Shown: positions 1,547 to 29,848 of the stretch, in pieces | How the letters are laid out: each line of letters begins with the position of its first letter | Numbering within the stretch: the stretch's first letter is position 1 | Origin: a virus | Direction: 5' to 3' (one strand) | IMG/VR virus record: IMGVR_UViG_3300030099_006785 | Span: 1-38,117 of that record | Length of the DNA stretch: 38,117 bases | Translations under genes and position numbers: made by a program | The notes under the pieces: generated by a model | The model's database searches: none | Seen by the model: only the letters and a program-made list of their open reading frames with translations | Told to the model about the DNA's origin: nothing

Positions 1547-2269
1547 ATGCCTTTACCAAAGATAGCGACCCCGACTTATGAATTGGTTTTACCATCAACG
1601 GGAAAGAAAATTAAATACAGACCATTCCTTGTGAAGGAGGAAAAAATATTAATTCTTGCACTAGAGAGTGAAAATCAAAAGCAAATTACTGATGCAATTA
1701 AATCTACTTTAAGAGCTTGTATTGAAACGAAAGGAATAAAAGTAGATGATCTTCCTACATTTGATATTGAATATGTTTTCTTAAATATAAGAGGAAAATC
1801 TGTAGGTGAATCATTAGATGTTTTAATAACTTGTCCTGATGATGGTAAGACTACAATTGAATCTAAAATTTATATTGATGAGATAAAAGTTGAAAAACAA
1901 AAAGATCATAGTCGTGATGTTAAATTAGATGAAAATTTAACTCTTAGAATGAAGTACCCATCGTTGAATCAATTTATACAAAATAATTTTGATTTCTCAA
2001 CTAAAGAGATGTCATTTCAGGATTCTATGGATATAATCGCATCATGTATTGATGTTGTATTTAACGCAGATGAATCTTGGGCAGCATCTGATTGCACTAA
2101 AAAGGAATTGAATAGTTGGTTGGAAACTTTAAATTCAAGTCAATTTAAAGAAGTTGAAAAATTCTTTGAGACTATGCCTAGATTAAAGCATACAGTCAAA
2201 GTGGTTAATCCAAATACAGAAGTTGAAAGTGAAGTGACGTTGGAGGGATTAACAAGTTTTTTCGGGTAG
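1547..2269 (+). CDS. 26: gp26-like baseplate hub assembly chaperone
   Basis: The 240-aa protein has the T4 gp26 (T4_baseplate) family look: an N-terminal PTYELVLPSTGKKIKYRPFLVKEEK region, then a helical segment (LALESENQKQITDAIKSTLRACI), FDIEYVFLNIRGKSVGE and a CPDDG strand pair. In T4 gp26 is needed for hub assembly. By position and size it matches the tail-assembly chaperones that bind the tape measure. It is directly followed by the gp51-like ORF. Its last codons sit on a T TTT TTC slippery heptamer just before the TAG stop, so a fraction of product is probably extended by -1 frameshifting to about 300 aa. The 33-nt gap upstream shows no clear promoter or strong ribosome site. Confidence 0.85.
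   Translation: MPLPKIATPTYELVLPSTGKKIKYRPFLVKEEKILILALESENQKQITDAIKSTLRACIETKGIKVDDLPTFDIEYVFLNIRGKSVGESLDVLITCPDDGKTTIESKIYIDEIKVEKQKDHSRDVKLDENLTLRMKYPSLNQFIQNNFDFSTKEMSFQDSMDIIASCIDVVFNADESWAASDCTKKELNSWLETLNSSQFKEVEKFFETMPRLKHTVKVVNPNTEVESEVTLEGLTSFFG
2242..2263 (+). promoter_or_regulatory. Predicted programmed -1 ribosomal frameshift site joining gp26 and gp51
   Basis: The heptamer T TTT TTC lies at 2257-2263 in exactly the X XXY YYZ register of the gp26 frame, two codons before its TAG (2267-2269). A GGAGGG Shine-Dalgarno-like element sits at 2242-2247, nine bases upstream, the spacing known to stimulate -1 shifting in E. coli dnaX. After slippage the ribosome reads R-V-V and then the ATG at 2272 in frame, giving a 300-aa gp26-gp51 fusion. 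A weak hairpin (GCTCA/TGAGT, about 2275-2295) follows. This copies the lambda G/GT logic just before a tape measure gene. The site and frames are seen; the shifting itself is inferred. Confidence 0.75.
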
Positions 2270-2271
2270 TC

Positions 2272-2448
2272 ATGGCTCATATAAGTCTTGAGTCATATTT
2301 CAAACTTAACTTCTCCATGATGCAGCATCATAAATATAGTTTGACTGAAATTGAAAACATGATGCCTTGGGAGAGAGACATATATGTTGGACTATTAAAT
2401 CAATACATTGAAGAGCAAAATTTAAAAGCACAACAATCGAATATGTAA
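2272..2448 (+). CDS. 51: gp51-like small chaperone ORF (58 aa), probably the frameshift extension of gp26
   Basis: The 58-aa reading frame has the motif MMQHHKYSLTEIENMMPWER followed by DIYVGLLNQYIEEQ. This resembles the short proteins called gp51 or hub assembly catalyst in cyanomyoviruses and, more loosely, the T-part of two-frame tail chaperones. It is in the -1 frame relative to gp26 and stays open back to the slippery site. The ATG at 2272 has no ribosome site at good distance (GGAGGG is 24 bases away), so frameshift expression is more likely than independent initiation, though both may occur. Its TAA (2446-2448) directly abuts the ATG of the next gene, suggesting translational coupling to the tape measure. 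Confidence 0.75.
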   Translation: MAHISLESYFKLNFSMMQHHKYSLTEIENMMPWERDIYVGLLNQYIEEQNLKAQQSNM

Positions 2449-3906
2449 ATGATAACACCTAATATTTCACCAAGAAGAGTTACAAGTAATGCAGCTGCAG
2501 GATTATTTTCTGCTGCAAGAACTTCCATTAGGGGTACACAAACAAATACACAATCGATTATAAGGTCATCACCAGATCTAACAAAAGAACAAACATTTGG
2601 AATCAACTATGTTGATTTTTTTGGATCAAAGAAAAATTCTAAGATCTTAAAGAAAAGTATGAAGACAGTTAGAGATTCTATGGTAGATACTTTTGGAATA
2701 GCTAAAGTTTTGAAAGACTCTATAAAAGGAAAGGATGGTGTTTTTGGTATAATAGGAAAAATTTTTGGTGGTATAAAAGGATTAGCTGGTGGTCTTGCTT
2801 TACTAGCACTTCCCTTTATAAAAGGTTTCTTAGGGTTACTTGCAGTTGGTGGAATAGGAGGATTATTATTTGCATTTAAGGATAAGATCATTGAATTTTT
2901 CAGTGATAGGGCATCAGGAATTACTAAATTTTTATCTAATCTGATTGAAGATGTTGTTTTTGATAAATTAGCAACAGGAGAAGATAGGGAACTTAGAATT
3001 GAGAGTCAGGAAAGAGTTAGATTAAGAACCAAAGAATTAACTCAAGAAGGAAAAACAGAATTTCAAGCAAGAGAGGCAGCTGTTAATGAAGAAATATCAA
3101 CTTTAGAAGATCAAAGACAAAAATTATTAACTGGAAAACAAGATGTACAGACCAAAAGAAAGATAGATTCACTAGATCGTAGAATTAAATTTTTACAAAC
3201 TGGTAAAACTCAACTACCTATGAATCAGGTGGGCCCTATAAAGTTTATCCAAAACCCCTTCGATACTATCGGAAAACTTATAAAAAATTTTGGTAGGGAA
3301 AGGTTAGGTAGTTTTATAAGTCCTGATGCACTTTTTCCTGTAGATGTTGGAGAGTTGACAGGAAAGGATAGATTAGAAGCAATCAAACAATCTCTCACTC
3401 AATTTGGTGAGATAGGAGATATTGGATTAGTAAGAAATCTTCTTAGTCAGGTTAAAGAGGATGATGTTAGTCCCGATCAATTTCAATTCGTGCAAGATGT
3501 TCTCAAATTTCTTGAGATGGGTGGAGATCCAGTAGAAGGTTTTGGTAGTGATGAAGATAAAAGAAAACAATTCATAGATGCAATTAGCGGTGGAGATCCA
3601 GTAGAAGGTTTTGGTAGTGATGAAGATAAAAGAAAACAATTCGTAGATGCAATTAGCGGTGGATCAAATATTATAAAAGGTTTACCAAATATAAGTAAAA
3701 CAAAGACTGATAATTCTGCAAACCTTGGTAGAGGTGGTAATAAAGTTGCAATGCTCCCTATGAATACTGGTTCAAGTGGAGGATTAACTAGAGATGATCG
3801 TAGAGTGTCTGATGGTAGTTCACCTACACATCAAATTCATGATCCATTTGACAGAGACAATATGTTTAATATTATTAACAGAAATTCTTTGGGAATCATA
3901 GGATAA
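2449..3906 (+). CDS. Probable tape-measure / tail-length protein (gp29 position)
   Basis: The 485-aa protein directly follows the predicted frameshifted chaperone pair, the classic place for a tape measure. Residues about 100-150 are strongly hydrophobic and Gly-rich (GGLALLALPFIKGFLGLLAVGG), as in many tape measures. Residues about 180-260 are charged and helical, with coiled-coil character (EEISTLEDQRQKLL). Residues about 358-403 are two nearly identical 23-residue units starting GGDPVEGFGSDEDK. The C-terminus is Gly/Ser-rich with DPFDRDNMFNIINRNSLGIIG. No Shine-Dalgarno precedes the ATG, so it probably depends on reinitiation from the upstream stop. I do not see direct gp29 sequence similarity; the role is inferred from context and composition. 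Confidence 0.6.
   Translation: MITPNISPRRVTSNAAAGLFSAARTSIRGTQTNTQSIIRSSPDLTKEQTFGINYVDFFGSKKNSKILKKSMKTVRDSMVDTFGIAKVLKDSIKGKDGVFGIIGKIFGGIKGLAGGLALLALPFIKGFLGLLAVGGIGGLLFAFKDKIIEFFSDRASGITKFLSNLIEDVVFDKLATGEDRELRIESQERVRLRTKELTQEGKTEFQAREAAVNEEISTLEDQRQKLLTGKQDVQTKRKIDSLDRRIKFLQTGKTQLPMNQVGPIKFIQNPFDTIGKLIKNFGRERLGSFISPDALFPVDVGELTGKDRLEAIKQSLTQFGEIGDIGLVRNLLSQVKEDDVSPDQFQFVQDVLKFLEMGGDPVEGFGSDEDKRKQFIDAISGGDPVEGFGSDEDKRKQFVDAISGGSNIIKGLPNISKTKTDNSANLGRGGNKVAMLPMNTGSSGGLTRDDRRVSDGSSPTHQIHDPFDRDNMFNIINRNSLGIIG
3520..3657 (+). repeat. Two near-perfect 69-bp tandem repeats inside the tape-measure-like gene
   Basis: Units 3520-3588 and 3589-3657 differ at one base that I can see (ATA versus GTA, Ile to Val). 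A few bases of a third unit (GGTGGA) follow. Each unit encodes 23 residues, so the frame is kept. The near identity suggests a recent duplication. Confidence 0.95.
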
Positions 3907-3910
3907 TTAT

Positions 3911-5503
3911 ATGGAAAAATTAAATCCATTAATCGGAAAACCCGCCATAGGATCTTTACGATTCAATAAGCGAAGTGAATTTGATAAATTTTTAAAATTT
4001 ATTAAATTCGAAACAAAAGAATTAAAAGGAAAAGAATCAGGAATAGGACAGAGTATTAAAAAATTTGTACCAGCTGCTGCTGGCGGTTTTGCTGCTTTTG
4101 GTATTGGTGCTTTATTGGCATTAAGAAAAAGAAAGGACGATCCTAAATTTTTTGAATCAGGAATCATACCAGGTAAACGACCAATCCAGTCTACTACACC
4201 TGGCAACGTGCGTAAAACAGCTAGTAAAACAGATATACGTGCAGTCCAAAGGAAAAATACAAAAAGAAGACTTGATCGTACTAGGTCTGATAAAGGTTTT
4301 TTTAATAAGTATAGACCAGGATATACAAAAGATATTGGAACAAGAATTGAAGAGGCAAAAGCAGATCCAAAGAAAGCAGAGGCATTAAAAAAATCAAAAA
4401 TTAATCCTACGAGAAGTAGGATTACATTCTCTCAAGAGGTTACTAGTGACGTTATTAGGAAAGAAAAAGAAATAGTTAAAAAGTTTTTTACGAATCAAGA
4501 TAGTCTTGTTAAAAAGAATGCAAAATTGGGAGATGATTTTTTAAAAAAATTAAATGAGGCAATAGGAAAGGACAATCCACTTTTTAAAGGAGATACAATA
4601 GATGACACTCTTAAAAAACTAGGTCTTCCTCTGGATGATGTATCTAAATTTGAGAAGAAACTTCAAGGAGGAAAATTTAATATCAAAGATTTTTTTGATA
4701 TAGGTAAAACAGTTGATAAAAAAGTAACAACATCTACAAGAGGATTAACTGGTTCTGATATAGGGATGGATTTTCTTAATCAAAGAGTGTTCGGAGGTGC
4801 AACTGCAGATCAAATTGATGATGCAATCTTAAACTTCAGATCTGGTAAAAATCAATTAAACGTTGATTCATTTAGAAGATTCACTGAGGGTGAAACAATA
4901 TCAGATCCAATGAAAAGGGTTGGACAGAGAAGAACTAGTACGATATCTACTAATCCAGTTAGATCTGGTGCTTTAGCTAAATTTTTTAAAAGAATGAGGC
5001 CTGGTGGAGTTAAATTCACAACTTCTAGACTTAGAGATTTTCTTCCTAGAGGAACAACATCACTTATTGGTAAAACTATAAATAATCCTTTTGTCAAAAT
5101 ACCATTGTTTCTTTACGAACTTTTTGGTGCGTTTAGTGAGGGTACACAAATAGTTAATTTAAAGAATAATATTGTCACTAGTCTTATTGATCTAGGAATT
5201 GCTGTCAACAATATTATAAATGCAGATGATCCTTCTAAGATGAGACTCTTTATAAGTGAACCTAGTGCTCCAAAATTTAAATCATTTCAAAAGGAAAGGA
5301 ATCGAAAGATAATGAGATTGAAAGAGGCACAAAATAATCAAGCAAATAACATTATTGTTCCGATGAATTTAGATAATGAGCAACAAGGAGGCCCACTTAA
5401 CATTCCAAATGTTTCATCGAGTTCCTCTTCTAGTGTTGCTTTTAATACTGATCAGTTAAATATAGGTGACATGGTATTCTTATCTAAACTTAGTGCAGGT
5501 TAA
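3911..5503 (+). CDS. Tail internal / tape-measure-like structural protein
   Basis: The 530-aa, basic protein has an N-terminal region with a short hydrophobic segment (FVPAAAGGFAAFGIGALLAL, about residues 51-70) followed by a positive KRK cluster. A long Lys/Arg-rich helical middle follows. A second hydrophobic region (NPFVKIPLFLYELFGAFSEG, about 393-412) comes before a Ser-rich C-terminus. The architecture parallels the preceding 485-aa protein, and both lie between the chaperones and the gp27-like hub. Possible roles are a second tape-measure component, a gp28/gp29 counterpart or an ejected internal protein. An AGGA lies about 10 bases before the ATG, and the 3' end overlaps the next start (TAATG). 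I do not recognise a named family. Confidence 0.5.
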   Translation: MEKLNPLIGKPAIGSLRFNKRSEFDKFLKFIKFETKELKGKESGIGQSIKKFVPAAAGGFAAFGIGALLALRKRKDDPKFFESGIIPGKRPIQSTTPGNVRKTASKTDIRAVQRKNTKRRLDRTRSDKGFFNKYRPGYTKDIGTRIEEAKADPKKAEALKKSKINPTRSRITFSQEVTSDVIRKEKEIVKKFFTNQDSLVKKNAKLGDDFLKKLNEAIGKDNPLFKGDTIDDTLKKLGLPLDDVSKFEKKLQGGKFNIKDFFDIGKTVDKKVTTSTRGLTGSDIGMDFLNQRVFGGATADQIDDAILNFRSGKNQLNVDSFRRFTEGETISDPMKRVGQRRTSTISTNPVRSGALAKFFKRMRPGGVKFTTSRLRDFLPRGTTSLIGKTINNPFVKIPLFLYELFGAFSEGTQIVNLKNNIVTSLIDLGIAVNNIINADDPSKMRLFISEPSAPKFKSFQKERNRKIMRLKEAQNNQANNIIVPMNLDNEQQGGPLNIPNVSSSSSSSVAFNTDQLNIGDMVFLSKLSAG

Positions 5504-7074: not shown

Positions 7075-7302
7075 ATGAAAACCATAGAAGACCACATTCA
7101 ACACGACAAGGAACTTCTTGCCGATCCAAATACATCTGAGCCAATGAAAAGGCACACAATAGAAGAGTTACACGAACTTGAAGTTTATGCTGATCATCAC
7201 CACGATGAGATTGAAGCAGGTGATCATCACGATCCAAATGCTTTAGAATTATTCTGTGAAATGCACCCTGACGAACCAGAGTGTTTAGTATATGACGATT
7301 AA
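7075..7302 (+). CDS. cp12: CP12-like Calvin-cycle inhibitor
   Basis: The 75-aa acidic protein ends LELFCEMHPDEPECLVYDD. This is the CP12 C-terminal module: two cysteines eight residues apart (C61, C70), P in the loop, and a final VYDD. In cyanobacteria CP12 binds GAPDH through this module and then phosphoribulokinase, shutting off the Calvin cycle. Cyanophages carry cp12 and are thought to push carbon to the pentose phosphate pathway. The N-terminal half (MKTIEDHIQHDKELL, HTIEELHELE) is helical and lacks an N-terminal Cys pair. Four pairs or runs of His and acidic residues lie at 41-52. It has its own late promoter and a strong GGAGG site seven bases before ATG, and overlaps the next gene by one base. 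It is a metabolic gene embedded in a baseplate cluster. Confidence 0.82.
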   Translation: MKTIEDHIQHDKELLADPNTSEPMKRHTIEELHELEVYADHHHDEIEAGDHHDPNALELFCEMHPDEPECLVYDD

Positions 7303-10169
7303 TGGATTCACTCACTACTTTAGGAAAAACTAATTATATCGGGAAGGATGGATTCCATTGGTGGATAGGCCAAGTTGCTCCTCCAAAATCATGGAAGGGC
7401 ATAAATGCTTATGTTTCAAGAAAAGGATACGCACAAAATCGTTGTAAAGTTCGTATCATTGGGTATCATCCTTTTGATGAGGAGGGAAATGTCCTTCCTG
7501 ATGATGATTTACCTTGGGCAGAATTAATGTTAGATCCCAGAGTAGGATCTGGACAGGCACAACTCAATGAAACTTCTGTTCTTGCTGGTGGAGAGATATG
7601 TATTGGTTTTTTCCTAGATGGTGATGATGCACAGCAACCAGTGATTATGGGACTTCTTCCAAAATTTGATCAGATTCCAGATGAAATTAGTAATCAAGAA
7701 ATTGATAGCGTAAAGAGTAGTGGATTCAGGGCCTTTAGTGCTGATCTTCAATCTTCAGACAGAAATCCTGGTAATCATATGTTAGGCCCACTAAACCCAG
7801 TACAACCATTGGGTAATGAAATTGCGAGGAGGAATAATCTTGAAAGTGGAAATGAACTTCAATTAAGAGATAGGGAATATGAGTTCCAATACCAAGAGGA
7901 TTTAGCACTTTCCTTATCTGAGACAGAATCTAGTGAGGAAGAATTTAGAGCAAATGAGGGTGAGAGATTCAATCAATTCCAAAAAGTAAAATTAAATAAA
8001 TCGAATAAGAAATGCAGAAAGGGCCCTGCCCATGATGGAAAAGGTGGACTACTTAAGGGTGGAGCAACTGCATCATGTAAGTTTGAAGAAGACAATACAA
8101 AAACCACAACTCATTTTAATCCTTGTGATGACTCTGCTATCGGAAAGATAAACAATTTACTTGGTGATTTTCTAAAAGCTGCCAGAACTTATGAGAGAAT
8201 TGAAGATAGTTTTATAGATCCTCTCACAAATATGATTGTTGATATGGATGCAGAACTTGAATACTTACAACAACAAACTTCTGGATTTGTGAAGGGAATG
8301 ATTAATGAATTAAAGTCTTCATTTTTGAAGGGTTTAAATAAGAAGTTTAAAAAATTTCTTTCAAAGCAAAAGAAAAATGCATCAAAATCATTCTTTAACG
8401 ACAAATCAGTGAAGAAAGGTTTTAGTAGCATTATGAACATAATTAACTGTGCTTTTGGTGCTGCACTTGCAGGACTTGGGGGTTTCCTCAAGAATATGTT
8501 TAAGAATCTTCTTAATAAAACATTCAATGCAGCAGTTTGTGCTATAGAACAGTTGACTGCAGGAATCTTTGCAAAGATTTTTGATACTCTGGAGGGTGCT
8601 TTGGGTACAGTAATGAGTGGATTAAACTGGTTAGTGGGTGGATTGGGATCAGTTTCAAAAGCATTGAGAGGAGCAAGTAGTTTAGCAAAAAAAATTCTTG
8701 ATTTTATCGGATGTGTTTTGCCTGAGTGTGAAAAACCAACTACTTACAGAACTGGAACAGGTACAAAGACACAAGCAGAGACAAACTTTGAAGAACTCAC
8801 TAAAAAAGCAAATGTCATATCGGGATTAGGAGATTCATTAGCAGAACAAAGATCTAAAACAAAGAGAAGGATACAAGATGCAGTTGATAGAGTTCTTGGT
8901 AATCCAACTCAGACAGATATAGAAGGAGTAGCAGCTGATGCTAATGTATCTTTGGAAAGAGCAGAGGCTATTCTTAGAGGAGAATCGGAAATTGTAATTG
9001 GTGGAGACACAGATTTATCAACACTTGATGATGGTTTAGGAATAGATGCAGCAATAGACAAGTTATCAATCTTTGGAGATGAGGATCTTCTCTTTGCAGA
9101 CTGCACTGAGAAAAGTAATAATCCAAATACTCAAGATGATCTCACTCCAGTAAGGCCAGGATTCATTTACTCTAAATGTATACCACCAGATTATCAGGTT
9201 AATGGATCAGGTTCAGGTGCAGAGTTATTAATTGTTGTTGGTAATGATCGTAGAATATTCTCTGTCGAAGTTATAAATGGTGGAAGAGGATATGATAATG
9301 ATACGACTATCACGATCATTGATAATACTGGAAACGGAACAGGTGCAAATGTGATACCAATCGTAAAAAATGGAGTCATTGTTGAAACTGTGATATTATC
9401 TACTGGATTTGGATACTGCCTTAATACAACTGGAATTGGATCAGATCCTATTGGAGCAGACGTTACAGGAACATTAAAAGATGTTCACATCTCAAGACCA
9501 GGATATGGTTATGATCCGAATGATACAGTTACTTTTGATGATATAACTAATATTCCTATCATTACAACTCCTAGTGGAGGAATTGTAGGAGTAAACTTCC
9601 CATCAGATTTAACCACAGAGTTTAGTGCACGACCAGTTTTAAAAGTAAATACTACGACTGGATTTGGATCTAAATTAATTCCTATAATGTCATTCAAGGG
9701 TCAGTTGAAAACTGATGTTGGTGCAGAGGATAGGAAGAAACTCATTGGAATTGAACAAGTCGTTGATTGTATTGGTGATAAAACTGAATTAGTTGGATAT
9801 GTAAATGGTGTTCCTTATTATGGCCCATTCCACCTTCATCCAAGTCGAGGTGTTAAGATGGTTGGAGCTCAACACGTAGACTACCCACATGAGATAATTT
9901 ATGATACAATGGAAGAAAGTCTCGGACAACCTCCAGTTGTTTCTCGATCTTCTAGTGTGACAAGCACAGAGACAACAGAAACTTCAGAGACTACAACACC
10001 TGTAGATACCACACCAACTATTGTGACTGAGCAAACAACTTCAACTCCAACTACTCCTACAACTACAACTACAACTGATACAAGTTCATCAAGCAGTAGT
10101 TCAACCCCACCAAGCACACCACCAAGTAGTCCACCTTCAGGCGGTGGTGGTGGTTACGGAGGATACTAA
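7302..10169 (+). CDS. 5: gp5-like baseplate hub/spike protein with OB-fold, no visible lysozyme domain
   Basis: Residues 1-130 match the gp5 N-terminal OB-fold (FHWWIGQVAP, RCKVRIIGYHPFDEEG, LPWAELMLDP, GGEICIGFFLDGDDAQQPVIMGLLP), which sits on the gp27 hub. The remaining 825 residues differ from T4 gp5 (575 aa). There is no recognisable gp5 lysozyme domain. A long amphipathic or hydrophobic stretch lies at about 378-475 (INCAFGAALAGLGGFL, LNWLVGGLGSVSKAL). Gly-rich beta modules with GGRGYDNDTTITI and RPGYGYDPNDTVTF lie at about 620-770. The His-rich YYGPFHLH-KMVGAQH-PHEIIYDT module is at about 830-875, then a Thr/Ser-rich linker and PPSGGGGGYGGY. The beta-helical needle of T4 gp5 seems to be supplied by the next gene. 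Confidence 0.8.
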   Translation: MDSLTTLGKTNYIGKDGFHWWIGQVAPPKSWKGINAYVSRKGYAQNRCKVRIIGYHPFDEEGNVLPDDDLPWAELMLDPRVGSGQAQLNETSVLAGGEICIGFFLDGDDAQQPVIMGLLPKFDQIPDEISNQEIDSVKSSGFRAFSADLQSSDRNPGNHMLGPLNPVQPLGNEIARRNNLESGNELQLRDREYEFQYQEDLALSLSETESSEEEFRANEGERFNQFQKVKLNKSNKKCRKGPAHDGKGGLLKGGATASCKFEEDNTKTTTHFNPCDDSAIGKINNLLGDFLKAARTYERIEDSFIDPLTNMIVDMDAELEYLQQQTSGFVKGMINELKSSFLKGLNKKFKKFLSKQKKNASKSFFNDKSVKKGFSSIMNIINCAFGAALAGLGGFLKNMFKNLLNKTFNAAVCAIEQLTAGIFAKIFDTLEGALGTVMSGLNWLVGGLGSVSKALRGASSLAKKILDFIGCVLPECEKPTTYRTGTGTKTQAETNFEELTKKANVISGLGDSLAEQRSKTKRRIQDAVDRVLGNPTQTDIEGVAADANVSLERAEAILRGESEIVIGGDTDLSTLDDGLGIDAAIDKLSIFGDEDLLFADCTEKSNNPNTQDDLTPVRPGFIYSKCIPPDYQVNGSGSGAELLIVVGNDRRIFSVEVINGGRGYDNDTTITIIDNTGNGTGANVIPIVKNGVIVETVILSTGFGYCLNTTGIGSDPIGADVTGTLKDVHISRPGYGYDPNDTVTFDDITNIPIITTPSGGIVGVNFPSDLTTEFSARPVLKVNTTTGFGSKLIPIMSFKGQLKTDVGAEDRKKLIGIEQVVDCIGDKTELVGYVNGVPYYGPFHLHPSRGVKMVGAQHVDYPHEIIYDTMEESLGQPPVVSRSSSVTSTETTETSETTTPVDTTPTIVTEQTTSTPTTPTTTTTTDTSSSSSSSTPPSTPPSSPPSGGGGGYGGY

Positions 10170-25700: not shown

Positions 25701-26810
25701 TGGAATGATTATACTAATCTTGATTCAATTGATAGTACAACAGTTTCAGGCGTGACAACTTCCGTTCTACCAGAAAGAGAAATCTTATTTGGTGAGCATA
25801 CACATTCTTTTGTGAATATGGATGAGAATCAAGTTGAAGTAGCAGAAGCATGGTCTAATGGAACTTTTAAATGTAGAATGGGTCAAGATGTCAGAATTCC
25901 AACAGTAACATCAACGAGTGGTGGTGCTTGTTCAATAATAAAAATTAGAGTTAGTGATCCAATTGATTTAGCTACAGGAGTAAGTCAGATCTATTCTACT
26001 CAAACTCCAGATGGACAACCAACTGGAGACGGATTCAAATATTTTTTAATTTCTGAAAATAGTTTTGGTGGAGATATAACTGATTGGGAAGGAGGTCAGG
26101 TTGTATATCGAGATGATGATGGATCAGTAAATCAAGATTCACAAGCAAAATATGCTCAAAATCAACCAGTGACATATACTAGTGGTGGTCAAACATATCA
26201 ATATATTCAAATTAGTGATTCAGTAAAACTATCAAAAGCATTTGACGCAACTGATGAAACAAAAGACGGGAGTGATTCAAATATAAATCTCTTAGGAAGA
26301 CCAGTTCAATTAAGAGCATCAAGATTGGGTGTAATCTCAAAGAATAAACTATTTAAATATGATGTCTATCCTTTATTTCTTGTTGGTAAATTAATGGATA
26401 AGGCACAAATAAATAATATATCGATAAAAGAAACGACAGGAATTTTCCAAAAAACTACTGCTCCAGTGTTATCTGTGACCAATGGATCAAATGGTACTAT
26501 TGATTTAGCGAATAACAATACTTTTAATGACGCAACACCACCAACTAATTTTGTGTCAGTAGATAGATTATCATCATCAAGTATTGATACTCAAAATGAA
26601 CAAGTTATAAGACCATCAACAACAAAAGATATTTTTTACGTTGGTGAAAATGAAACAAAAGAAGTCGATATGACAAAAGTTTTTGGAGTTGATCGTAATG
26701 TTATTACACCAGATAATAATAATATTGAAGTAACATTCATTACCGCAAAACAACTTGGAACTGGTGGTTCTAAATTTGTACAGGGAAGTTTAAATTACAA
26801 GGAACAATAA
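22773..26810 (+). CDS. Large virion structural protein, paralogue 2 (1345 aa)
   Basis: It shares ordered motifs with the protein before it: EVSTTLLGVNRAETQLSLFS (about 240), RRVFRYQPGRISGFTFGL (about 470), KVTMWKIEFGWYGAIGARFY (about 617) and YKYGASYYIDGGDEGTSEIY (about 690). An N-terminal extension (about 1-230) and an insertion (about 270-450, with WEKIGLYNKTLFDQYINFIR) are extra. A CRACAGFGQVFTPG segment near 770 and a beta-rich C-terminal half follow. It probably occupies an equivalent position on the baseplate or fibre. A GGAGGAG ribosome site lies inside the end of the preceding gene, and the stop overlaps the next start (TAATG). Confidence 0.7.
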   Translation: MNGGKDVKIGHDKRPVSVIPSDEQLLYNIANGEILTDEFGNPLVTKVDQFFLADASKDRSTSVVFPENPKDIYPIKKVTQVGIVTATYGVDFDVDVRINNNQKITVLKRTGQTVPVGVSTVKERPIPPQTVAIGITFTDFNQCEIRTREPNVGSFNDKNNLYFSNPSDIANVDLRVPFNVSGHNIPAGSHVVKKDFDRIKISQPVTAGVTTDKVVITRTDSLFYEADNVLKVAEEFVETSEVSTTLLGVNRAETQLSLFSNVSSYGLNDDEWESFSYNTGVSKASWDTRPNKTYGNRYLARIEEETQESAIKLSGFPPSHSYPFGPEWEKIGLYNKTLFDQYINFIRLGNLAYDLFSIPALGYPASWISKFLNPADVDFNEDTGEIVYAKIPGRESDFSSAFQKIDEWTETWRAIGEGKSLLDPVTGNYLSFGSLKTLLANNDLTSIYDGSNTRPGYSTGYRRYSTIQSRRVFRYQPGRISGFTFGLRSSTEPVSGIALEWGIKNETDEYVFKIYAGQLSIVRRSTVPLERSVLIRNGLDPTENPTVQINGTSYNTVQPEIPSGDPFDVNDDQGPLDGGDEDRRARKFHTIEIPRDKFNGDPLNGNGPSGYTIRPEKVTMWKIEFGWYGAIGARFYAYIPTGNGDARWVVIHTLVIENSLTGPCLRDSYFRFKYSLDIFNTANLKTPQFLYKYGASYYIDGGDEGTSEIYSVSTGLTPKQISTANETSLFGVRPKDVITNSSGVNIANRKLILPTKFSMSTNTLTEVKVKTCRACAGFGQVFTPGVKTGDSGRSMTIKFEGTNLITAVGVGASFSDADIGAKLIAPSIFGAYIVEMDQETATTYTNGFKTYESAKIYGWGPGLDNYPNYNKLGGVSGRPIAGVDVKDYAQGGITTKIAIDTYPHAVRLSNYDVHFASDYEINGAEIDIQFMNPINKDQSSLGGSNTHFADFMIGVTDKRPSVNIGNPNLLDGWLIPWNDYTNLDSIDSTTVSGVTTSVLPEREILFGEHTHSFVNMDENQVEVAEAWSNGTFKCRMGQDVRIPTVTSTSGGACSIIKIRVSDPIDLATGVSQIYSTQTPDGQPTGDGFKYFLISENSFGGDITDWEGGQVVYRDDDGSVNQDSQAKYAQNQPVTYTSGGQTYQYIQISDSVKLSKAFDATDETKDGSDSNINLLGRPVQLRASRLGVISKNKLFKYDVYPLFLVGKLMDKAQINNISIKETTGIFQKTTAPVLSVTNGSNGTIDLANNNTFNDATPPTNFVSVDRLSSSSIDTQNEQVIRPSTTKDIFYVGENETKEVDMTKVFGVDRNVITPDNNNIEVTFITAKQLGTGGSKFVQGSLNYKEQ

Positions 26811-29800
26811 TGGCACTTAAGAATCCTAAAATATTTGGTTTGAATGTAAGAACTCTACTTGCTGATGTGGAGAATAAAAATACTGCAATTCAAAATCTTG
26901 GAATAAATCCTCTAGATCTAGAAATAATTAAAGGATCAACTAATGCAGGTATGTCTCGTTTTGATTGGATTAGTTTTTCTCGATTAAAAAATCCCCTTTT
27001 TAGAACCCTTGATCGTTTTAGTAATGAATCAACAACTTTCAATGGAATTTTACTTAACCGTGCTGGAACAGATCAAACATTATTTGGTAATCTAGATATT
27101 AGCGGTTCATTAAGTGGCACTGCAATTCGATATCGTTATCGTGATTTTGATGTTGGTGTTACTGTTGGTAATTTTAGCAATCCATCTTATAAAATTGCAG
27201 ACATATCAACATCAAGAGTAAGTGCATGGAGTTCCTCTGATTCAAGAGCTAATAATCCTAATTCTGATACTCAAAAGTTAGCAAGAATTTCTTATGGTGC
27301 AAGAGTTGGTATTGTTAAAGATGGTAAATTGGAATTTGGCCCACAGTCAACTGCGACTCAAGCATTAGGAAATGAAAGTGATGCTACTACACCTCAAAGA
27401 GACTCTGCGGGAAATATTATTCCTGGCCCTGCAGGTCAACCAAGATTACAAACAAGTATTGTACCAGAAGTAAAAGAGTTTCCATCTGAAGTTCCAACCT
27501 CAATAATCAAGTGTAAAATTGGAAATGAAATAGTAAAACTGTATGCAATGAAAGGAATTCCATTAGTATTCAAAGGATTTTTTAGAAGTTTAAATGCAAC
27601 AGCAACTGTTGATGTTTCTGGCACTAAAAAGAGAGCAAGTTGGAAGATAGTTGAAACTGCAAACGAAAATTCATTTACTAATTATCCTAATCATCAAGCA
27701 GGAACATCAACAATATCATATCGATCACCAATATCAAGAGAGAGATTTATAAAACTTTATAAGAACCCAAATGAAATTTTTAGTGTAGATATAAGATCAG
27801 CAAACCTTAGAGAACTTCCAGCCACACAATTACCAGAGTGTACTAGGTTAGAGTTTTCTTATAATCAACTTAAAATATTTCCAAATTTTAATTTTATTGC
27901 TCCAAATTTAAACACTCTTTTAATTAGAAGAAATCCATTTTATCTAAGTGACATTGAAACTGAGAGAACATTTAATAGTTCTGTTCTGGCAAAAATTCCA
28001 GCAAATTTAAACAATTTGCATATGGAAGGAACTTTTTATGGATCAATTGAAAGAAACATTATTTCTGCAAGACTTCCAGATCTAGTTACTTTTGATTGTG
28101 GTAGAGGTGGTGGAGCATACTTCCATCAAGATACAAGAAACAATTCAGGAACAGTTCCCACTGAAGTTATGATAAATGGTGGTTCCCCAACGCCAGGAAG
28201 TGATAAGGGTAATGCTTCATTCTGCCCTGATGTTCCTAAAGATGTAACAACTTATACTATCACTTCTAATGACTTTAGATCTGTTGATGATAATGCAATA
28301 CCAGCAACCACTCCACCTACTACTGCAAAAGATTCAAATGGAGATCTTATACCATATCCAAATGGTTCATTTAGTTATAAAAAACTTCCAAATCTTGTGA
28401 ATTTAAATGTTAATAGTAATTATTATTTGTCAGATGGTAATCATTCGTTAGCAAGTGCTGATAGTGGCACAATTTCAACAATTAATTATTCATCAACAGC
28501 AGTAGCGATTCCCAACAACTTGGGAGGAAAATCAAGTCTTACTAAGTTTGTTTCTACTTATAATAGAGGATCTAAAAATCCAAAATTAGTAGATGAAACA
28601 AGTGCAAATTATCTTTTTGGTGGATGTGGATCTCTTACAACAATTAATCTTTATGCAACAAATTTGGGAGCAATAAATTTTCCTTTAACGTTTAGTAATC
28701 CCTCATTAACATACCTTGATTTAAGATATACAAGGATTAGAGGTGGTAAACCACAAACTGCACCTGCGGATCAAGAACATGTAATTTATGCTGAAACATT
28801 TAAAGATGCAACCGAATTAGAATATATTTTGATTGATTCAGGAAATCTTGGAGCTGGATTCTCAAGTGAAAAAAACACAATAGATCCAGACGCATTTTTG
28901 TATAACTCAAAACTTTATTACTTTTGGTATCGTTCTAATACTACAACAGGTACAACAGGGGATATTTCTCAATTATTTAATGCGAATCCTAGACTTACAT
29001 ATATTTGGATGCAACAAAATAGATTTACTGGAACTGTTCCTAATTTTGTAAGTAATCCATCAATTTATTACGTGAATTTACAGAACAATCAATTATCAGG
29101 ATCAATACCAGGATTCAAAAGTTTAAATAATTTACGTTTCCTATATCTTCAAAATAATAATCTCACAGGAATGTTAGAGCCAGATTTACTACCTAATTTA
29201 CGTACTTATCAGGCACCTAATAATCAAATTGCGGGACAAATACCAGATTTTACTGGATGTCCTCGATTAAGAAGTTTAACTCTACGTAATAATCAAATAG
29301 AATCATATAAAGTTGGTGCATTTGCTAAATTGTATCAAATTAATTTTATTGACTTAAAATTTAATAAGTTAACTCAATCTGATCTAGATCAGATATTAAT
29401 TGATTTGCACTCAAATTGGAAAGATATTAAACGTGGAGGAGTTTCAATTAATTTAAAAAATCAAACAAATGATAATAATGCTGTAGGAACGTTTACATCT
29501 AATGGTAGTGCTGATAGTTCAAGAACACCTGGAACATATAATATAACTGATGCTGCGGGCAACTTATCTGGAACAGATGCCAAATTTAAAGTTGTGGTTG
29601 CTAGTGATGGAACACCTACAATTACACACGTATCTGGAAGTGGCATAGGTTATGCAGTGAATGAAACAATCACGATTAATGATTCATCACTTGGTGGTGG
29701 TGGCGGTGCTAATATTATTCTCACGGTCACCACTGTTGCAAGTGGTCTAACATTTCCAACTGAGGCAGGATATGAAAAAGCAAGAATTTTAGATGCAAAT

Positions 29801-29848
29801 GGTTGGAGTATAGGTCTTTCTGGTGGAATACCTGACGAACAAGTTTAA
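26810..29848 (+). CDS. Virion structural protein with leucine-rich repeats (1012 aa)
   Basis: Residues 1-330 look like a conserved cyanophage virion N-terminus (NPKIFGLNVRTLLADVENKN, NINPLDLEI-type segment, GTDQTLFGNLDISGSLSGTA). Leucine-rich repeats then run from about 330 to 405 and from about 540 to 875, with units such as LTYIWMQQNRFTGTVPNF, IYYVNLQNNQLSGSIPGF and LRFLYLQNNNLTGML. The LxxLxLxxNxLxGxIP pattern is that of plant-type or bacterial surface repeats and would form a curved binding face. A Gly-rich beta module (SGIGYAVNETITINDSSLGG) and FPTEAGYEKARILDANGWSI close the protein. The likely role is a fibre or adhesin whose variable region recognises the host surface. Function is inferred from the fold. 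Confidence 0.75.
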   Translation: MALKNPKIFGLNVRTLLADVENKNTAIQNLGINPLDLEIIKGSTNAGMSRFDWISFSRLKNPLFRTLDRFSNESTTFNGILLNRAGTDQTLFGNLDISGSLSGTAIRYRYRDFDVGVTVGNFSNPSYKIADISTSRVSAWSSSDSRANNPNSDTQKLARISYGARVGIVKDGKLEFGPQSTATQALGNESDATTPQRDSAGNIIPGPAGQPRLQTSIVPEVKEFPSEVPTSIIKCKIGNEIVKLYAMKGIPLVFKGFFRSLNATATVDVSGTKKRASWKIVETANENSFTNYPNHQAGTSTISYRSPISRERFIKLYKNPNEIFSVDIRSANLRELPATQLPECTRLEFSYNQLKIFPNFNFIAPNLNTLLIRRNPFYLSDIETERTFNSSVLAKIPANLNNLHMEGTFYGSIERNIISARLPDLVTFDCGRGGGAYFHQDTRNNSGTVPTEVMINGGSPTPGSDKGNASFCPDVPKDVTTYTITSNDFRSVDDNAIPATTPPTTAKDSNGDLIPYPNGSFSYKKLPNLVNLNVNSNYYLSDGNHSLASADSGTISTINYSSTAVAIPNNLGGKSSLTKFVSTYNRGSKNPKLVDETSANYLFGGCGSLTTINLYATNLGAINFPLTFSNPSLTYLDLRYTRIRGGKPQTAPADQEHVIYAETFKDATELEYILIDSGNLGAGFSSEKNTIDPDAFLYNSKLYYFWYRSNTTTGTTGDISQLFNANPRLTYIWMQQNRFTGTVPNFVSNPSIYYVNLQNNQLSGSIPGFKSLNNLRFLYLQNNNLTGMLEPDLLPNLRTYQAPNNQIAGQIPDFTGCPRLRSLTLRNNQIESYKVGAFAKLYQINFIDLKFNKLTQSDLDQILIDLHSNWKDIKRGGVSINLKNQTNDNNAVGTFTSNGSADSSRTPGTYNITDAAGNLSGTDAKFKVVVASDGTPTITHVSGSGIGYAVNETITINDSSLGGGGGANIILTVTTVASGLTFPTEAGYEKARILDANGWSIGLSGGIPDEQV

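Follow-up and report, generated by a model that had tools for sequence, protein, structure and literature searches.

A probable two-frame tail chaperone gene, gp26 with gp51, in T4-like marine phages

Two-frame tail chaperones in phages

The tail chaperone of phage lambda is found in two forms, which are products of a single gene placed just before the tape-measure module: the short gpG and gpGT, with a -1 extension. The slip takes place a few codons before the stop, on the heptamer G_GGA_AAG, and a low share of the long form is expected. A -1 frameshift is also present in a myophage, P2, in genes E and E+E'; the P2 heptamer is reportedly T_TTT_TTG, as described by Christie et al. in 2002. In the dnaX gene of E. 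coli the signals follow a defined order: an upstream Shine-Dalgarno-like (SD-like) element, the heptamer and a downstream stem-loop. A review from 2016 describes frameshifting of the G-T type as widely conserved "except T4" and reports a higher efficiency for P2 (PMC5009743). A chaperone frameshift has also been described in Vandenendeviridae, where a poly-T site goes together with a -1 extension ahead of the tape measure (PMC12846349).

The tail assembly chaperones of T4-like phages are the subject of Vladimirov, Gautam and Davidson (Virology 2022;566:9–15), a paper which by its title deals with the same genes that we discuss here. The title is found in the reference lists of PMC10885494, PMC12846349, PMC9603447, PMC12859696, PMC11131426 and PMC12671138; in PMC12846349 it is the source given for slippery poly-T signals in T4-like TAC-N genes. 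We have high confidence that gp26 and gp51 form a single gene, in which a programmed -1 ribosomal frameshift gives a short and a long tail chaperone; very probably it is the T4-like form of lambda G/GT. This main conclusion was already known, given the paper of 2022. The original prediction had called gp26/gp51 the "long-sought" equivalent of two-frame chaperones, a wording which has to be dropped, since the T4-like tail assembly chaperones were identified in that paper. On gp26/gp51 frameshifting in cyanophages we found nothing in the open-access papers searched. The anatomy of the stimulators may be new, and also the buried start codon and the losses of start codons, which are independent additions.

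Our locus would share with lambda a short and a -1 extended form from one gene, a slip a few codons before the stop, a low share of the long form and, judged by synteny, the place before the tape-measure module. It differs in the heptamer, which is T_TTT_TTC, and in the presence of SD-like and stem-loop stimulators. With P2 it would share a -1 frameshift in a myophage, and the P2-type heptamer T_TTT_TTG occurs in phage phiM9. With dnaX the locus has in common the order of the three signals; the heptamer and the function are different, so that the likeness is in signal layout only. Vandenendeviridae differ by their GTTTTT motif and belong to another phage group.

The gp26-gp51 junction and its neighbours

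The window which we have analysed is a stretch of 38,117 nt, part of the genome of a T4-like marine phage; the junction with its signals, the tail-tube-like gene and the 485-aa ORF described below are on its plus strand. The gp26-like gene (1547–2269) codes for a short product of 240 aa, which would have the role of lambda gpG (TAC-N). It matches PF12322 (T4_baseplate, 3.1e-71) with 240 bits, the gathering cut-off being 24.5, and phrog_150 (3.9e-77). Its last codons are GAG GGA TTA ACA AGT TTT TTC GGG TAG. The slippery heptamer T_TTT_TTC lies there in the zero-frame register (2257–2263, with XXY at 2258–2260 and YYZ at 2261–2263) and is separated by one sense codon, GGG, from the stop TAG (2267–2269). 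Nine bases upstream of the heptamer we find GGAGGG (2242–2247), a Shine-Dalgarno-like candidate for an upstream stimulator. A stem-loop, the likely downstream stimulator, begins 8 nt past the heptamer: positions 2272–2279 pair with 2289–2296 and leave a loop at 2280–2288.

After a slip the reading would be TTT CGG GTA GTC ATG GCT CAT..., with no stop until TAA at 2446–2448. The -1 extension (2264–2448, in frame from 2263) carries the gp51-like domain, with a putative role like that of lambda T (TAC-C). It includes the gp51-like ORF (2272–2448), 58 codons in the -1 frame with an ATG at 2272, two bases past the gp26 stop; this ORF matches phrog_634, "baseplate hub assembly catalyst" (3.2e-27). 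With 61 codons after the slip, the fusion has 239 + 3 + 58 = 300 aa. This is the arrangement of a two-frame chaperone, in which a second ORF overlaps or adjoins the short one, in a shifted frame that is free of stops from the slip site on. The register of the heptamer before the stop, the GGAGGG at nine bases and the 300-aa fusion through the 58-codon ORF agree to the base with what had been predicted. For the window the predicted peptides which span the slip are ...GLTSFFR and VVMAHISLESYFK, with the junction ...SFFRVVM...; the exact sites are now available for a direct test of the frameshift.

We infer that slippage takes place, how often it does so, and also what each form does and to what it binds. 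Most ribosomes would read gp26 to its TAG and give the 240-aa short chaperone. A minority would pause at T_TTT_TTC, with pairing of GGAGGG to the anti-Shine-Dalgarno behind and the stem-loop ahead, and would slip one base back, with both Phe-tRNAs pairing anew to TTT TTT. The slipped ribosomes would then continue into the 58-codon ORF and produce the 300-aa long chaperone. Homology and gene position suggest that both forms may act on the tape measure protein in tail assembly, like gpG and gpGT of lambda.

The gene upstream of gp26 (56–1513) codes for a tail-tube-like protein (PF23849 2.1e-19, phrog_45 7.3e-34); a tail-tube gene next to gp26 is also annotated in S-SRM01, phiM7, KVP40, phiAS5 and HTVC008M. 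This protein has an Ig-like domain (Big_6) and shares with the gp5-like protein (7302–10169) a motif of 57 columns, VG.V.G.PYYGPFHLH...MVGA.H..YPH.IIYDT..ESL (blastp 5e-16); both proteins have Gly-rich C-terminal tails of the GGGGYG type. A gene with a CP12 domain (7075–7302, PF02672, 1.8e-12) has the gp27-like structural gene on one side and the gp5-like one on the other; CP12 is a regulator of photosynthetic metabolism typical of cyanophages. On the other side, downstream of the gp51-like ORF, there are two ORFs of about 500 aa (the second at 3911–5503), and neither of them matched the tape-measure profiles. The first one (2449–3906, 485 aa) has a hydrophobic segment, and synteny makes it a likely component of the tape-measure module: the corresponding gene matches tape-measure profiles in HTVC008M (1.9e-13) and weakly in phiM7 (1.8e-5). 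Of the predicted gene order, the tape measure is placed in the window by synteny only.

Conservation of the slip site, the phase and the stimulators

In the window itself TTTTTTY is not enriched, with 38 occurrences found and 63 expected. In 14 plus-strand genes of the window there are 85 in-register sites X_XXY_YYZ, two of which open into the -1 frame for more than 30 codons: the gp26 heptamer and a site at an overlapping gene start. The latter (26789–26810) is T_TTA_AAT, in register, seven codons before the stop of a gene of 1345 aa, and its -1 frame enters the next gene (26810–29848); it is probably an ordinary overlapping gene start. The case against chance comes from the conservation across relatives and not from the statistics of the window. 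We collected 165 gp26 loci from viral contigs and named phages, of which 69 were left after dropping those at least 80% identical. Searches seeded with gp26 of KVP40 and of phiAS5 gave only 2 and 4 loci.

A Phe-Phe pair near the end of gp26 is present in all 165 loci. The non-redundant set has T_TTT_TTY in 69/69 cases: the base before the pair is always T (mean expectation 0.60), with a variable residue (S, N, A, D, H, T), and the first Phe codon is always TTT (background 0.67). The codon before the pair is AGT in 31 loci, AAT in 12, TCT in 11, GCT in 7, GAT in 6, and CAT and ACT in one each; the second Phe is TTC in 64 and TTT in 5. The loci are not fully independent; treated as if they were, they give a probability of about 10^-16 for the T alone and about 10^-12 for TTT. 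A chance origin is ruled out by the conservation across the 69 loci. A pure protein constraint on Phe-Phe is also ruled out, by the third base before the pair, which is always T, and by the other Phe-Phe pairs within gp26, which have the form T_TTT_TTY in only 5 of 68 cases. The zero-frame stop comes 0–3 codons past the heptamer in 67 loci, with the one-codon spacing of the window in 60, and 8 codons past it in the remaining 2.

The -1 phase of gp51 holds without exception across the loci, KVP40, phiAS5, phiM7, phiM9, Atu_ph04, Marzo and HTVC008M among them. In one locus (L014) an indel has displaced the zero-frame stop and the phase from heptamer to gp51 has been kept. The extension is a conserved domain of 55–70 aa, under constraint. 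Nearly all cyanophage-type loci have the gp51 ATG, and 19 of the 69 loci have no ATG, GTG or TTG within the first ten -1 codons. An example is L127, which reads TTT CGC GTA GCT CTC TCA CAC GAT AGT where cyanophages show ... ATG GCT CAT. The Met of cyanophage gp51 is Leu in these start-less relatives, as expected for an internal residue. Pairwise comparison of 13 start-less loci over the N-terminal stretch of gp51 gave 334 synonymous and 139 non-synonymous changes in the -1 frame, 41:449 and 14:453 in the other two; since the synonymous excess is found in one frame only, the stretch evolves as a -1-frame protein.

GGAGGG is found exactly nine bases before the heptamer in 33 of the 69 loci, and a further 26 have a weaker SD-like sequence at 8–10 bases; GGAGG occurs in 0.23% of background slots of equal size. 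For the Glu of the conserved Leu-Glu-Gly, GAG is used in 48 of 57 cases, as compared with 30% elsewhere. The proposal that heptamer, GGAGGG and -1 phase should be shared by related phages is borne out for heptamer and phase, and the GGAGG is conserved in cyanophages. Neither loss of the site nor a change of phase was found in the 69 loci and the named isolates, with two exceptions: Ackermannviridae keep the phase without the exact heptamer, and in T4 and 44RR the long form is a separate gene.

In most of the 43 cyanophage-type loci a stem, about 8–12 bp long, begins 4–8 nt past the heptamer, with the gp51 AUG within its 5' arm, as in the window. Compared with synonymous recodings which preserve the protein, the stems have a mean z of -3.1 and 34 of the 43 loci fall in the lowest 5%; control stretches gave -0.15 and -0.06 in the same test. 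For the cyanophage group this recoding rules out that the stem merely follows from the M-A-H...L-E-S-Y codons; when the window is taken by itself, 7% of the recodings are equally stable. In the alignment of stems 81% of the cells are paired, versus 26–43% when the partners are slid, and there are 21 changes on both sides versus 6.9 ± 2.2 in shuffled data. The divergent group of loci has no such stem, and RNAalifold over all 77 sequences found no consensus structure; the stem-loop is thus a feature of one lineage. We lean slightly towards the following history: the cyanophage signal would be a compact module of two stimulators with the layout of dnaX, in which the stem, gained in the cyanophage group over an older and simpler T_TTT_TTY, has two effects: it favours the slip, and it hides the former gp51 start, which would leave the fusion as nearly the only source of the second domain. 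T4 would have answered the same need for two products by gene duplication. A free gp51 of 58 aa may be made in cyanophage-type loci, given the ATG there, and would count against the fusion as sole product.

Alternatives, T4 and function

Could gp51 be a small gene in its own right, with ribosomes that terminate at the gp26 stop and reinitiate at the gp51 ATG (2272), the heptamer being merely a conserved Phe-Phe? The ATG is indeed at coupling distance past the stop in most cyanophage-type loci, and the public records annotate two genes. Such a gene would not explain the invariant T before a varying residue and a first Phe codon which is always TTT, nor the 19 start-less loci with coding constraint and a position which alternates between M and L. 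Coupling permits any phase, while the phase found is always -1; the ATG is buried in a selected stem, and T4 and 44RR carry both parts as one fused gp51 ORF. We consider a separate gp51 very unlikely.

It is even less likely that the frameshift is real and serves only for regulation or as a read-out of termination, the long form having no role as chaperone. The extension is a conserved and constrained domain, which has been kept fused in gp51 of T4 and 44RR, and both gp26 and gp51 of T4 are listed as hub assembly chaperones (PMC3004832). The least probable of the alternatives is transcriptional slippage on the T6 run, which would give mixed mRNAs, some of them in the -1 frame. All 69 loci do have six or more T in a row; however the run is kept short, since a second Phe codon TTC, found in 64 of them, stops it at six. 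Nor does slippage of this kind give a role to the codon register, or to the SD-like and stem-loop elements with their distances relevant for the ribosome.

In T4 gp26 also ends in Phe-Phe, as GAG TTC TTT GAG, with no slippery site, and it is followed by gene 25. T4 gp51 (249 aa) has PF12322 (3.9e-52) and then a gp51-like C-terminal domain; 44RR is the same. T4 thus shares PF12322 with our locus and differs by having two genes. There are two PF12322 genes in T4 and two in 44RR, a short gp26 and a long gp51, and one each in KVP40, phiAS5, P-SSM2, S-SRM01, phiM7, SH19, Marzo, phiM9, HTVC008M, Atu_ph04, Kuja and D479. A T4-type split, with two PF12322 genes and the long one fused in frame, was not found in the window, a partial genome with one gene in two frames. 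Judged from the sequences, what other phages have as a single two-frame gene is a pair of paralogues in T4 and 44RR; these two lineages would obtain the same short and long products from genes 26 (short) and 51 (long, one frame). In an unrooted protein tree the two T4-type genes group on the same side of a branch (96/79); their branches are long, and the tree fits a loss of the frameshift in T4 as well as a gain elsewhere. In their abstract Vladimirov et al. 2022 reportedly describe frameshifting as a conserved trait of several T4-like groups, with T4 relying on 26 and 51 as separate genes. A tail chaperone produced in two forms by frameshifting appears to be present in cyanophages, in SAR11 myophages and in many relatives of T4. 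T4 is no longer an apparent exception among long-tailed phages (cf. PMC5009743), since it has kept both products, as genes 26 and 51.

The conserved site and phase and the start-less gp51 frames support the prediction that gp26/gp51 are two-frame tail chaperones. T4 gp51 is required and yet absent from the particle (PMC3004832). An AF2 model (pLDDT 86.5) gave no significant match in a PDB fold search, where the folds sought were HK97 gp13 and YqbN; the highest Foldseek probability among the PDB matches listed was that of 2ob9_B, the HK97 tail assembly chaperone (0.57, TMt 0.43, a weak E of 1.4), with 3fgx at 0.23. In a viral fold search the matches were mostly gp26-like baseplate hub proteins, together with unnamed phage proteins, and no independent chaperone. 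The gene order, the two forms and the weak HK97 fold match fit a role like that of lambda G/GT.

The Ackermannviridae SH19, Menlow, Kuja and BX-1, as well as the similar Vibrio phage K445, have the gp51-like frame in -1 with NTT TTY in place of T_TTT_TTY; perhaps they shift by slippage of a single tRNA. In this group (L173, L174, L176, L177 and L179) the gp51-like ORF often has no start codon. The records of the annotated relatives consulted here enter the pair as two genes, or gp26 alone, and none records a frameshift. In those of phiAS5 (L085, 3768–3890) and HTVC008M (L181, 3055–3192) the gp51 start is annotated internally, so that part of the conserved domain is cut off. The record of Stenotrophomonas phage Marzo has a ribosome-binding site annotated inside gp26 (L172, 2215–2232), beside T_TTT_TTC, for the small ORF downstream.
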